A stretch of DNA of 64,000 nt from Panorpa germanica (lineage: Eukaryota > Arthropoda > Insecta > Mecoptera > Panorpidae): contig OY783209.1 of NCBI GenBank assembly GCA_963678705.1, positions 9,176,001 to 9,240,000 of the forward strand, in the 5' to 3' direction. The notes under the pieces are model-generated. The model did no database searches. It was not told where the DNA came from and saw only the letters and a program-made list of their open reading frames with translations. Positions 28,911 to 59,866 of this stretch are shown here, one piece after another (the first letter of the stretch is position 1; every line of letters starts with the position of its first letter). A program made the position numbers and the translations under genes.

Positions 28911-29520
28911 TATTATTTATTGTTTATTGTTCGCCTTTCGGCTTTACAATCTACATTCTTAATACATATTTCAAATTACAATTAAATTTACATTATTCTC
29001 CACCAGCTTATTTATTCTCCTGTTTTTTCTTTCCTTCTTACTATTTCCGCCATCCACCTCTTTCCTTCACTGCCTCCCTTTAATAGCTGGCCGATATTCC
29101 TTTCGCTCGCTACTTTTTCCTTACACTCAAACTTAATGTGCTCCAGTGTTTCGTACTCCGCTCCGCACATTCTACACTTTCTTTCCTCACTCTTTTCCCA
29201 GTATCTGTTTCCTTTTTCCTCATTTCCCAATCTAAACCTTGCTGTTCTTCTTATGTGTTTTATGTCTTTTTCTATAAGGTACTGAGCCACATTATTTTCC
29301 CATAACCTTTTATATCTTTTATTGTAGTTACTTTTTTCTATTTTTCCCATTCTCTCCTGCTGTTGTATCTCCTTATCACTTCTCCTTAGCTCCTCTTCCA
29401 CACTTGCGCCACCTTCTCTTCTCCTCTCTGCCTCCTCGATCGCCATTCCATTCCTTTTAAAATACTCCTTTCTCTTTTTCGAACCTCCTTTTTTATATAC
29501 GTATTTTAAAAAGCTTAGTA
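28911..29520 (-). mobile_element. 5'-truncated non-LTR retrotransposon with 14-bp target duplication
   Basis: Flanked by a perfect direct repeat AATATTAGTAATAT (28897-28910 and 29521-29534). The TTATTATTT tail is at the low-coordinate side. The minus-strand frame 29446-29012 encodes the C-terminal ORF2 part: helical EERRREGGASVEEE region, YLIEKDIKHIRRTARFRLGN, KCRMCG, ETLEHIKFEC, then IGQLLKGG and RWMAEI. Same family as the copy at 7.8 kb. Dead fragment. Confidence 0.85.
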
Positions 29521-53465: not shown

Positions 53466-53934
53466 TTTTTAAGCTAATATTAAAAAGTTAAACAAAACCT
53501 GCTTAAAATGTCAATGTCAAACATTAATTTATTCGCGGCTGTATTTACAACTCTCTCGCTACATGTTGATCATACCAACCAACATTAAGAAATACTAACT
53601 AATGCTTGTAATATTTTATTATTTAAACATTTCAACAAGTACATCATTTAAAATCTCTCGTTGAAAATAAAATTATTGATATTATGTTTCAGTTTTTTTA
53701 AAGTTTCGCTAATAATTACTAGTATATTACGTGATATTACGTAAAATAAGGTTTTCATTTTAAATTTATTGACTTTTGCTTTTGTAAATTGGTAGTTGTT
53801 AGTCGGCAGCCATTTTGAATTAAACATATCCGGCAGCATCCATTGTATCATTCTTTTAAGTCGTTCTTTCTTTCATGGTGGATGGCTCAGCCTCTACTTA
53901 TTTATTGAACATAACATATTAATAAAATTATAAA
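53466..53934. promoter_or_regulatory. Divergent promoter region of BCAS2 and RpL4
   Basis: Only 469 bp separate the two start codons. A pyrimidine tract TTCTTTCTTTC (53864-53874), preceded by TCG, fits a 5'-terminal oligopyrimidine (TOP) start for RpL4, the usual signature of ribosomal-protein genes under TOR control. An upstream ATG at 53875 opens a 15-codon frame closed at 53922, before the RpL4 ATG. No TATA box is assigned. Confidence 0.5.
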
Positions 53935-56878
<2,944 letters not shown>

Positions 56879-57257
56879 AAAATATACAAGAATACGCCGT
56901 GCTTTATTTTACGTTAATAATTCAAAGACTATTATTTTATATATTTACTAATATAGTAAAAAATTGTTTTATTAATTTAGTAAAATAAACATTTGCTATT
57001 GTTGGAATGACAAATTTCTTTGTTTTATTTTTATAATACATGTATTATATTATTTATAAATAAACCACTTTTTTTCTTTATATTTGTCAGAATTTTAATA
57101 TCTAGGTTTTGTAAGTATTTTTTTTCAAGCAACATACAAAATGTAGACTGAAGAAACTTGATGCATATACACGAAGACTCGAAATAACTGAATGGATCAG
57201 AAGAAGTTGCCACATTCGTAAAAGTAAGTCATTTTCTAGTTTACTTTAATACACATA

Positions 57258-57330
57258 CTCGATGATGAACCATTTGTAATAGGTTGAGGATTATGAATCT
57301 CTGTGTTTACCATATATTTATCTGAAATAT
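57258..57330 (+). ncRNA. Type B box C/D snoRNA copy (host-gene intron 1)
   Basis: Box C 57262-57268 and box D CTGA 57322-57325. It shares ATGATGAACCA and AATAGGTTGAGGATTATGAA with the RpL4 intron 7 snoRNA. The 3' guide region differs. Confidence 0.58.
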
Positions 57331-57503
57331 ATAATTGCAATTTCTTTTAAAAAAAGTTTGGTACCTTTTCTAATTTGTTCCAAATTTTCTTGTAGGGATC
57401 AGTAAAGGGAATATGCAGTTGCAGCCAAATTACAATATCTGCGTTTGTGTTCGATTATTTAAACGGTAAGCTAATTATTTCTGTAATAATTATAAAATAT
57501 AAC

Positions 57504-57578
57504 TTAAATGATGAAATGCTTTTTAGAGCACTGGGTTATGAATGACTGTGATTAACGTTGACATTCCTCCTGATAAAC
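57504..57578 (+). ncRNA. Type A box C/D snoRNA copy (host-gene intron 2)
   Basis: Box C 57508-57514, box D 57570-57573. Both 28S-complementary stretches (AGAGCACTGGG and ACGTTGACATTC) are intact, while the linker between them differs (GAATGACTGTG against GAACAACCGTG). Confidence 0.7.
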
Positions 57579-57737
57579 ATTAATACATAATGAATTTTAA
57601 TTCAATTGTTTCTGTTTAATAAATTAATATTTAATTCTTTACAGCTGGGAGTAGAAAGGATGTGTCTACGTGCTTGGTCTCTTTTCTTTATTCCAGTCCA
57701 AAGGTAAGAAAAATTCAATGTAATGTTTAAATTCATT

Positions 57738-57810
57738 CTAGAATGATGATTTGCTTTTGGTCCGTGTTTCTGAAATATACCATTGACGTATTTACAAAAG
57801 CTCTGATTAA
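57738..57810 (+). ncRNA. SNORD18: U18 (SNORD18) copy (host-gene intron 3)
   Basis: Box C 57743-57749, box D 57803-57806. The guide TTTTGGTCCGTGTTTCTGA is unchanged from the RpL4 intron 4 copy. Confidence 0.82.
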
Positions 57811-58033
57811 TTTTACTAACCGAATTTTAAAAATGAACTTAACTTAAAATTAATTTTAACTTAATATTAATTCTAGGACACATCATTGATCAGATTCCAG
57901 AACTTCCATTGGTTGTTTCTGACCATAGTACAAGAACCAAGCATGTTCTTTCTTGCGTCGCATTAGAGCATGGGGTGATATCAAAAAGGTAAAATTCTTC
58001 ATGAATATTCAGTCACTTCTAGTTATAGTAAAT

Positions 58034-58169
58034 TTGCACTGGGAAATGTCCACATGGTCACAAGTTTATTTTTGAGATCGTGTTCCTTTAAATGTGCTAC
58101 AGAAACTGGTGGCTTGGCGTTCCCTTTCGGCTCTTAATTCCGGCATGGGGCATAGTTCATCTTACAAAT
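58034..58169 (+). ncRNA. H/ACA snoRNA copy (host-gene intron 4)
   Basis: Differs from the RpL4 intron 5 copy by very few bases (box H region CTACAGAAAC instead of CTAGAAAAAC). ACA at 58164-58166. Confidence 0.7.
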
Positions 58170-58387
58170 ATAAAATGTGATTCATATTTTCGTATATTTG
58201 GTTGTATTTAAAGTTTTGAAACCAAACTGATTTGTATTTTTGTTTTGTAGGTATACCAATCCCAACGTCTTCGTGCTGGTAAGGGTAAGATGCGTAACCG
58301 TCGTCGTATTGAACGTCGTGGACCCTTAATTGTCTACAACCAAGATCAAGTAAGATTCATTCACTAATTTTATAAGATTTTCACTTT

Positions 58388-58459
58388 GTAAATGATGATT
58401 TTTTTTAATTCTTGGTCTGTGTTGCTGATATTTTTGATTATAATCATATTCTGAAGTCT
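58388..58459 (+). ncRNA. U18-like snoRNA copy (host-gene intron 5)
   Basis: Box C 58392-58398, box D 58451-58454. The variant guide TTGGTCTGTGTTGCTGA is identical to that in RpL4 intron 6. Confidence 0.62.
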
Positions 58460-58694
58460 CTTTCAATTAATTTTTAATAGAACATCTATAAGTTTTGTAA
58501 ATTAATAAGTATTTTTTATTTACAGGGTTTAGTCAAAGCACAATTGAAAAGTTTGGTAAAGCTGTTGCTCCATATTATATAATTATCAATCTGACAAGCG
58601 TAACCATGGAGGACGCATGTTTGCCCCAACCAAGCCATGGCGCAGGTAAGAAAATTGTACATATCTTAAGAAAATAGTAATTTTTTTAAAAATT

Positions 58695-58767
58695 TGAAAT
58701 GATGAAATGCTTTAGAGCACTGGGTTATGAACAACCGTGATTAACGTTGACATTCCTCCTGATATGA
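58695..58767 (+). ncRNA. Type A box C/D snoRNA copy (host-gene intron 6)
   Basis: Box C 58699-58705, box D 58759-58762. The guides match the RpL4 intron 3 copy, with one T-to-C change before box D. Confidence 0.7.
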
Positions 58768-58962
58768 TTTATGGTTTAATTATAATTTACAAAATGGTTT
58801 TCATTTAGTAATAATTTAATTTATGTTTAGGTGGCACCGCAAGATCAATGTGAACCAAAAGCGCTACGCACTGGTTTCTGCTATTGCTGCCTCCGGTGTA
58901 CCAGCTGTGGTACAATCTAAGGGTAAAAATATATATTATGTTACGCTGTTTTAAAATTGTTT

Positions 58963-59036
58963 CTATGATGATGATTTGCTTTTGGTCCGTGTTTCTGAAA
59001 TTTATTATTGACGTATTAACAAAAGCTCTGATTTAA
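58963..59036 (+). ncRNA. SNORD18: U18 (SNORD18) copy (host-gene intron 7)
   Basis: Box C 58968-58974, box D 59028-59031. The U18 guide TTTTGGTCCGTGTTTCTGA is intact, while surrounding intron sequence has diverged. Confidence 0.8.
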
Positions 59037-59228
59037 TTAATTACAAAGTTAAAACTTTATTCAAAAGTTCTACAAATTTTAACTTGCTATTTTAATTTTA
59101 GGGTTTCATCAGAATGTATGGTTGTTGAGTTTAAAAGTTGAGCAAAACCAACTCAAGCTGTTTGTTTCGCTGGATTATGCTGAGATCCAAAAGGTAAAAG
59201 ACTGAAAATATGTTGTTTAATTATTTTA

Positions 59229-59302
59229 GACAATGATGATTTCCTTTTGGTCCGTGTTTCTGAAATTTACATTGACTTATATTAACAAAAGCTCTGATAA
59301 TA
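59229..59302 (+). ncRNA. SNORD18: U18 (SNORD18) copy (host-gene intron 8)
   Basis: Box C 59234-59240, box D 59294-59297. The guide is unchanged. The neighbouring exon (59102-59193) is a heavily decayed exon-5 relative. Confidence 0.8.
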
Positions 59303-59471
59303 CCATTTTATTTATTTATTTAATATACATAAATCCATATTTTAATATTTCATGTTCATGTTGTTGCAGAATTATATTTGCTTCTTCCTGATTTACAAAC
59401 TTGATAATTTCTAATCCCAGAAGGTAATATCTTTGATAATATTCCGTTAATTAAATAAGTGTAGTTTAGTT

Positions 59472-59607
59472 TTGCACTGGGAAATGTCCACATGGTCACA
59501 AGTTTACTATTGAGATCGTGTTCCTTTAAATGTGCTAGAAAAACTGGTGGCTTGGCGTTCCCTTTCGGCTCTTAATTCCGGCATGGGGCATAGTTCATCT
59601 TACAAAT
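59472..59607 (+). ncRNA. H/ACA snoRNA copy (host-gene intron 9)
   Basis: Near-identical to the RpL4 intron 5 copy (TTTACTATTGAG instead of TTTATTTTTGAG). Box H AGAAAA is intact and ACA is at 59602-59604. Confidence 0.7.
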
Positions 59608-59866
59608 TTATTTAAAATTATAATTACTGGTGTAATACAATATTACGTAACTTGATTGAATAAATATATATCGAAATAATTTTTTTGTTACAGTATTGAT
59701 TCGGGTTTACTATTTTTTGAAATATAAAAATGATTGGAAAGAAACTAGATGAACCTTGCAGATTATTTTTGATGCAAATCTGACACTGAGTTATAGAATA
59801 TAAGATTTACTTCTATATATGTATATAAAAAATATATTATAATAAAGAATTGTGAACATAAATCAG

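Follow-up and report, generated by a model that had tools for sequence, protein, structure and literature searches.

A 64-kb window on chromosome 6 of the German scorpionfly, Panorpa germanica (Mecoptera), contains an array of nine introns beside the ribosomal-protein gene RpL4 (the window is the whole stretch of DNA analysed, 64,000 nucleotides (nt)). With a probability of about 0.83, we interpret this array as an RpL4-derived noncoding host of small nucleolar RNAs (snoRNAs), which would have formed by repeated partial tandem duplication, would be transcribed by RNA polymerase II and spliced at its nine introns, and would deliver one small nucleolar ribonucleoprotein (snoRNP) from each. The sequence itself establishes that the array is homologous to RpL4 and has this intron structure, that it lost the reading frame and kept boxes, guides and splice sites, and that the main guides pair with 28S rRNA.

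Layout of the array and its relation to RpL4

The joined exons of RpL4 gave an open frame of 428 codons with the stop codon ending at 56878; the closest protein matches were flea RpL4 (82-83% identity), consistent with Mecoptera. Downstream of this gene we delimited nine GT-AG introns (57224-57395, 57466-57644, 57704-57876, 57989-58250, 58350-58525, 58646-58830, 58923-59101, 59194-59369 and 59424-59693), each containing exactly one snoRNA, in the order type B, type A, U18, H/ACA, U18-like, type A, U18, U18 and H/ACA (Table 1). All nine aligned to introns of RpL4, the cognates of array introns 1 to 9 being RpL4 introns 7, 3, 4, 5, 6, 3, 4, 4 and 5.

An earlier note on this DNA had proposed a host with one snoRNA in each of nine introns (three U18, two type A, one U18-like, one type B and two H/ACA), a layout already known from noncoding multi-snoRNA hosts, and had derived it from RpL4. 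The delimited introns and the duplication blocks bear out this layout, the type counts and the derivation; the 14 snoRNAs that it counted in about 5 kb, the five in RpL4 included, span about 4.7 kb (54881-59611). The note had also spoken of a single scrambled copy, in place of which blastn blocks and the delimitation of introns and exons revealed several partial tandem copies. One block is 93% identical to RpL4, another is 87% identical, and in the outer units (57210-57325, 57477-57639, 59225-59298 and 59472-59610) the match is confined to the surroundings of the snoRNA; the copies therefore fall into at least three age classes, with the youngest block nested within the older array. Array exon 6 preserves a duplication junction, with its first 15 nt from RpL4 exon 7 and its last 42 nt from RpL4 exon 3. 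Array exon 8 resembles RpL4 exon 5, yet a U18 intron comes next. Because the word AAAGGTAAAA is common to both RpL4 junctions relevant here, a crossover at this word could have produced the arrangement.

The RpL4 frame is destroyed in the array by 15 gap columns in exon 4 (net loss of 13 nt) and by the junction inside exon 6, and five of the ten exons are no longer recognisable. The claimed loss of coding capacity therefore stands, with an open reading frame (ORF) of 85 amino acids (aa) as a caveat. In the predicted spliced array, this ORF extends from exon 6, a derivative of RpL4, across exon 7 and into exons 8 and 9 (58604-59423).

Using Rfam, we found SNORD18 matches at six places, three above the gathering cut-off of 41 bits (55147, 57738 and 59228) and three below it (58960, 58387 and 55814). 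No Rfam family matched types A and B or the H/ACA RNA at or above its own cut-off. Weak sub-cut-off matches to mir-3804 (H/ACA copy of array intron 9), ceN54 (type A copy of array intron 6), and snoU36a and SNORD52 (over U18 copies) were set aside. Folded as halves, all three H/ACA copies gave essentially the same two hairpins; folded as a whole, the RpL4 and array intron 9 copies gave two hairpins and the array intron 4 copy did not. The consensus of the H box is ANANNA, which is still satisfied in the intron 4 copy after the change from AGAAAA to ACAGAA. The remaining introns of RpL4, namely 1 (53938-54421, 484 nt), 2 (54600-54684, 85 nt) and 8 (56574-56674, 101 nt), showed no Rfam match up to an E value of 3; intron 1 may conceivably contain a lineage-specific H/ACA RNA.

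Table 1. Positions of the predicted host array, its parent gene and their snoRNAs within the window
Feature	Position	Strand	Remarks
Predicted noncoding snoRNA host array	57224..59866	+	9 introns plus exons between and after; coordinates from array intron 1 on
Type B copy, array intron 1, old unit	57259..57325	+	Changed: 0/30 functional, 16/41 other positions
Type A copy, array intron 2, old unit	57505..57581	+	Changed: 0/46 functional, 13/24 other positions
U18 copy, array intron 3, young block	57739..57809	+	Rfam RF00093, 46.7 bits; 70/71 identical to RpL4 copy
H/ACA copy, array intron 4, young block	58033..58169	+	134/137 identical to RpL4 copy
U18-like copy, array intron 5, young block	58388..58456	+	68/69 identical; Rfam 28.0 bits, below cut-off
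Type A copy, array intron 6, middle block	58696..58765	+	68/70 identical
U18 copy, array intron 7, middle block	58964..59035	+	Rfam 40.0 bits against cut-off of 41; 0/30 functional positions changed
U18 copy, array intron 8, old unit	59229..59304	+	Rfam 44.8 bits; flanks at shuffle level
H/ACA copy, array intron 9, old unit	59471..59611	+	
Young duplication block	57730..58540	+	blastn: cognate RpL4 55139-55968, 93% identical
Middle duplication block	58604..59094	+	blastn: cognate RpL4 54797-55279, 87% identical
Weak TCT/TOP-like initiator candidate	57074..57081	+	Partial match TTCTTTAT; motif scan
Candidate AATAAA poly(A) signal of array	59841..59846	+	Motif scan
Parent gene RpL4 (uL4)	53935..56878	+	9 exons, 428 aa; introns 3-7 host one snoRNA apiece
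Type A box C/D snoRNA, RpL4 intron 3	54881..54950	+	Boxes by eye, D' read as ATGA; both guides pair with own 28S
U18 (SNORD18), RpL4 intron 4	55148..55218	+	Rfam RF00093, 45.3 bits; guide to 28S
H/ACA snoRNA, RpL4 intron 5	55461..55597	+	Two hairpins, H box AGAAAA, ACA tail
U18-like snoRNA, RpL4 intron 6	55815..55883	+	Rfam RF00093, 24.8 bits (below cut-off); U18's 28S site
Type B box C/D snoRNA, RpL4 intron 7	56270..56340	+	12-nt perfect 28S complementarity, score within shuffle range

Conservation of snoRNAs, exons and splice sites

In the old units (introns 1, 2, 8 and 9), the snoRNA cores are 91-98% identical to those of RpL4, whereas the flanks and the outer exons are at or near the level of shuffled sequences. 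Core alignments of the array snoRNAs lay 12.9 to 32.5 standard deviations (SD) above shuffles; within the old introns, the flanks reached at most 2.9 SD versus 12.9 to 31.5 SD for the cores. The guides and boxes, previously described as nearly identical to those of RpL4, proved fully identical in the seven box C/D copies: 0/243 box and guide positions were changed, compared with 51/250 other positions. In the four more diverged of these copies (introns 1, 2, 7 and 8), the counts were 0/136 versus 47/147 (Fisher 1e-15).

The exons have decayed unevenly. Exons 1, 2, 3, 9 and 10 are indistinguishable from shuffles in their similarity to RpL4, and exon 8 is decayed and recognisable (its alignment to RpL4 exon 5 was better than 300 of 300 shuffles), whereas exons 4, 5 and 7 and the last 42 nt of exon 6 remain close to RpL4. 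The earlier statement that most exons have decayed thus applies to the former six and fails for the latter four. Since four exons are still RpL4-like, the contrast between snoRNAs and exons rests on the old units. There, selection on the intronic RNAs only, as the note had proposed, can be read; it cannot be read in the young block, where the exons are about as conserved as the snoRNAs. Constraint on the RpL4 side alone may account for the conservation of the young-block exons. Selection on the array as the cause of low divergence in exons 4 and 5 was not adopted, because by our reasoning RpL4 constraint alone would roughly halve the expected divergence of exons.

We scored splice sites with weight matrices built from the eight RpL4 introns only, in windows 20-80 nt upstream (donor) and 40-110 nt downstream (acceptor) of the snoRNA that were chosen after seeing the data. 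The donor used was the top-scoring one in its window in 9/9 array introns, and the acceptor in 8/9; in intron 8, a rival site at +49 scored 7.3 versus 5.0. The GT-AG sites thus persist in the array, as claimed before. When the surroundings of introns 1, 2, 8 and 9 were dinucleotide-shuffled in 2000 trials, both sites reappeared with the observed scores in fractions of 0.0005, 0.007, 0.002 and 0, respectively, and donors supplied most of the signal in these old introns. In the array, C/D snoRNAs end 63-70 nt and H/ACA snoRNAs 81-82 nt ahead of the 3' splice site; by subtraction of coordinates, the corresponding distances in RpL4 are 64-73 nt and 80 nt. Because splicing is the usual route by which such intronic snoRNAs are released, splice sites kept amid decayed flanks are the strongest hint in the sequence that the array is expressed. 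The retention of cores, boxes, guides and splice sites amid the decay of the old units, and the pairing of the main guides with the organism's own 28S rRNA, argue for purifying selection on functional guide RNAs that would be spliced out of a noncoding host with its origin in a ribosomal-protein gene.

Predicted rRNA targets and genomic setting

A pattern search of the genome for the U18 site of 28S rRNA found 19 places of ribosomal DNA (rDNA) or rDNA fragments. Ten rRNA loci, covering nine of the 19 places (L017 and L021 being one place), were examined. The type B site was present in 8/9 places, the candidate site of the 3' pocket of the H/ACA RNA in 7/9, and the paired type A sites in 2/9, these last being reachable only in the four places read over 10 kb. 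The 28S locus L019 lacks the type A sites, and complementarity was therefore analysed on L020 and L022.

The D' guide of U18 pairs with 28S AAACACGGACCAAGG at 15 positions, two of them G-U, ending at D' on both loci, and addresses the 28S site of SNORD18, AAACACGGACC. The U18-like D' guide also forms 15 pairs with two G-U at the 28S site of U18, one nt from D'. Both outscored 30/30 shuffles on both loci. The D' guide of type A (with D' taken as ATGA) pairs with GCCCAGTGCTCTGAA, and its D guide pairs with GAATGTCAACGTGAA, with a single mismatch and a spacing of three nt to the box; these two targets share three nucleotides. In the RpL4 version, each type A guide outscored 30/30 shuffles on one locus but not on the other; the D guide of the array version had the same score, 12.5, below the shuffle maxima of 13.6 and 13.2 on both loci. 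As both guides of the type A snoRNA (54881-54950) lie on adjoining 28S stretches, an extended contact with rRNA is possible. By its target, type A presumably resembles U15/snR13. U15 is listed for a 28S site in the chicken table available from PMC2653536. Type B pairs with 28S CCTCAACCTATT over 12 nt free of mismatches, and for the copy in array intron 1 another place in L020 scored higher, 12.4 versus 12.0. For U18, U18-like and type B, the D guides showed no convincing match in 28S, the rRNA on which the C/D guides were run.

The U18 target word of 28S is dispersed over 19 places, with loci L013-L022 on contigs C1, C2, C8 and C77, and the type A site is missing from two of the four rDNA places that were read over 10 kb; therefore, rDNA fragments or pseudogenes seem to be scattered over at least three chromosome-sized contigs.

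Genome-wide DNA searches (464,208,970 bases) were made with the RpL4 gene, the array, the H/ACA RNA, U18 and type A as queries. RpL4 (7 places), H/ACA (3), U18 (4) and type A (3) matched only the locus of RpL4 and the array, although diverged copies can escape such searches. An extra match of the array query on C12 (locus L005) was dismissed as chance similarity in AT-rich sequence, with no box motifs or guide by eye. According to the assembly report, as excerpted, the 464.2-Mb genome was built from reads of the PacBio Sequel IIe and has a contig N50 of 5.0 Mb (PMC11464959), and the window is free of N; a collapsed or artefactual duplication is therefore unlikely. Elsewhere in the window, a 144-aa ORF at 29012-29446 (-) resembles a retroelement protein by eye and has no Pfam match.

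Alternative explanations and relation to known snoRNA hosts

In the scenario we favour, segments of RpL4 were copied in tandem several times. RNA polymerase II would transcribe the array, either from a start belonging to the array or by reading through from RpL4. Splicing would remove the nine introns, and debranching and trimming would turn each of them into one snoRNP. U18 and U18-like would direct 2'-O-methylation of 28S at AAACACGG, type A at CCCAGTGCTCT and GAATGTCAACG, and type B probably at CCTCAACCTATT; the H/ACA RNA would direct pseudouridylation. Because an intron suffices for this output, copies retaining a snoRNA and its splice sites would have kept yielding snoRNAs, and their exons would have been free to decay, with a noncoding host as the outcome. 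With the extra copies, four methylation guides and one pseudouridylation guide are probably available at a higher dose, or at a dose that can be set independently of RpL4 protein. That a host of the GAS5/UHG type arose here from a ribosomal-protein gene, as a payload-only unit carrying nine of the 14 snoRNAs of the locus and replenished from its parent at least twice since the oldest units, we hold to be slightly better than an even bet.

Several observations weigh against the favoured scenario. The Fisher value for the four more diverged C/D copies is over-confident, since each indel column was counted separately. With substitutions only, cores and flanks differed significantly at 0.05 in five of the nine introns (1, 2, 3, 8 and 9) but not in introns 4, 5, 6 and 7. 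Array exon 5 (58251-58349) is identical to RpL4 exon 6 (55678-55776) in 99/99 nt, and the flanks of the introns on either side differ by about 4 to 8% from RpL4; possible causes are constraint on RpL4 and local gene conversion. Array exon 7 matches RpL4 in 87/90 nt. Part of the array is therefore too young to reveal selection. Acceptors taken alone are weak evidence, their chance values being 0.088, 0.19, 0.24 and 0.033 in introns 1, 2, 8 and 9. The 85-aa ORF, which begins with ATG and is the longest in the spliced array, exceeds the 95th percentile of shuffles (74). The type B guide scored 13.0, against a shuffle maximum of 13.2. For the H/ACA RNA, a search for rRNA that would pair in the pocket 14-16 nt from the box gave one candidate in 18S, TTAAAGGAATTGACG (2/4 loci), and one in 28S, AACTATGCCTGGTCA; they were equalled by 11 and 8 of 100 shuffles and are therefore unproven.

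The sequence upstream of the array shows no clear promoter of its own. A terminal oligopyrimidine (TOP)/TCT start and an independent promoter are typical of GAS5/UHG-type hosts, and RpL4 itself has such an initiator (YYCTTTYY) at 53864; a motif scan of 56985-57223, upstream of the array, found none, and blastn detected no homology to the RpL4 promoter there. An own TOP-like start, for which the earlier note had proposed a test, is thus unsupported by sequence. With a near miss, TTCTTTAT, in place of a full initiator, readthrough from RpL4 past the AATAAA motifs at 56984 and 57059 becomes a real rival: the array may be an alternative 3' extension of RpL4, spliced through the nine introns, with the extended mRNA a target of decay. 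RpL4 and the array share strand and direction, and intron 1 of the array begins at 57224, 165 bases past the AATAAA at 57059, which is possibly RpL4's own signal. The two intervening AATAAA motifs, and the array's own at 59841, speak against such an extension, although neither is decisive. We regard it as a possibility well short of even odds and as a sub-variant of the favoured scenario, with which its odds overlap.

If the array were instead a decaying tandem pseudogene, its snoRNA copies would be unexpressed relics, similar through recent origin or gene conversion. The young and middle blocks, which are similar to RpL4 throughout, exons included, would fit this; the old units, which retain boxes, guides and splice sites amid decayed surroundings, do not. 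There is little reason why conversion should selectively spare guides and boxes within a stretch of 70 nt, and as the sole cause of snoRNA similarity it was rejected because the changes avoid these positions over that distance. We consider a mere pseudogene very improbable. Scarcely better placed is a pre-existing noncoding host that gained its old snoRNAs by retroposition and RpL4 segments later, and so was not born from RpL4. Exons 1, 2, 3, 9 and 10, without detectable similarity to RpL4, and the near-shuffle flanks of the old introns are compatible with such a history, but exon 8, which aligns to RpL4, lies beside old intron 8, inspection by eye showed no poly(A) tail behind any of the four old snoRNA copies, and the distances to both splice sites resemble those of RpL4 introns. 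We therefore judge a host of foreign origin improbable.

We know of no parent gene for hosts of the GAS5/UHG type, whereas exons and introns of the array can still be traced to a living protein gene 0.3 kb away. Like GAS5 and SNHG1/UHG of vertebrates and Uhg1-Uhg8 of Drosophila, the array has one snoRNA per intron, no conserved protein in its exons and a conserved snoRNA payload (Uhg clusters are named in the available text of PMC13228274 and gas5 in that of PMC2653536); conservation of snoRNAs over exons, as seen in those hosts, was found in the old units and not in the young block. In chicken RPL4, U18 resides in introns 2, 5 and 6 and U16 in introns 1 and 3 (PMC2653536, in part). U18 is thus hosted in introns of vertebrate RPL4 as it is here; there the copies lie inside the coding gene, whereas here nine more snoRNAs lie outside it, in noncoding remnants. 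In fly, 27 genes for cytoplasmic ribosomal proteins host snoRNAs, according to an excerpt of PMC2246290.

The nearest precedent in process, as far as the excerpted account goes, is deintronization in yeast, with six cases after genome duplication in which the snoRNA was kept without the protein gene (PMC4202332, citing Mitrovich 2010). In both, a duplicated host locus keeps the snoRNA minus the protein gene; the yeast cases followed whole-genome duplication and freed the snoRNAs from the intron, whereas the array arose by partial tandem duplication and keeps nine introns with their splice sites. Tandem recombination also copies snoRNAs to neighbouring introns in chicken and human, with complete or partial duplication of the host as a route (excerpts of PMC2653536 and PMC8178906); the copying route is the same, and here a new noncoding unit receives the copies. 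An analysis of noncoding snoRNA hosts found host sequence to be poorly conserved, and in its available text the terms 'pseudogene' and 'duplicat' are absent (PMC7719101). Among the titles and openings of abstracts listed in our literature searches (at most 20 per search), from whose coverage most subscription journals are missing, none concerned a ribosomal-protein gene as the source of an animal snoRNA host, a weak negative.

Noncoding hosts of several snoRNAs are already known, and the new part is a ribosomal-protein origin that can still be traced. The origin of the exons of such hosts is usually erased, because those exons evolve fast. Here the parent is adjacent and units of three ages stand side by side; therefore duplication, loss of frame, decay of exons and retention of payload and splice sites are legible at one locus. 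The locus offers a test of whether such hosts are former protein genes that no longer encode their protein, and of whether snoRNA dosage can be uncoupled from ribosomal-protein dosage. If true, our interpretation would provide a route by which the orphan exons of animal noncoding snoRNA hosts can originate.

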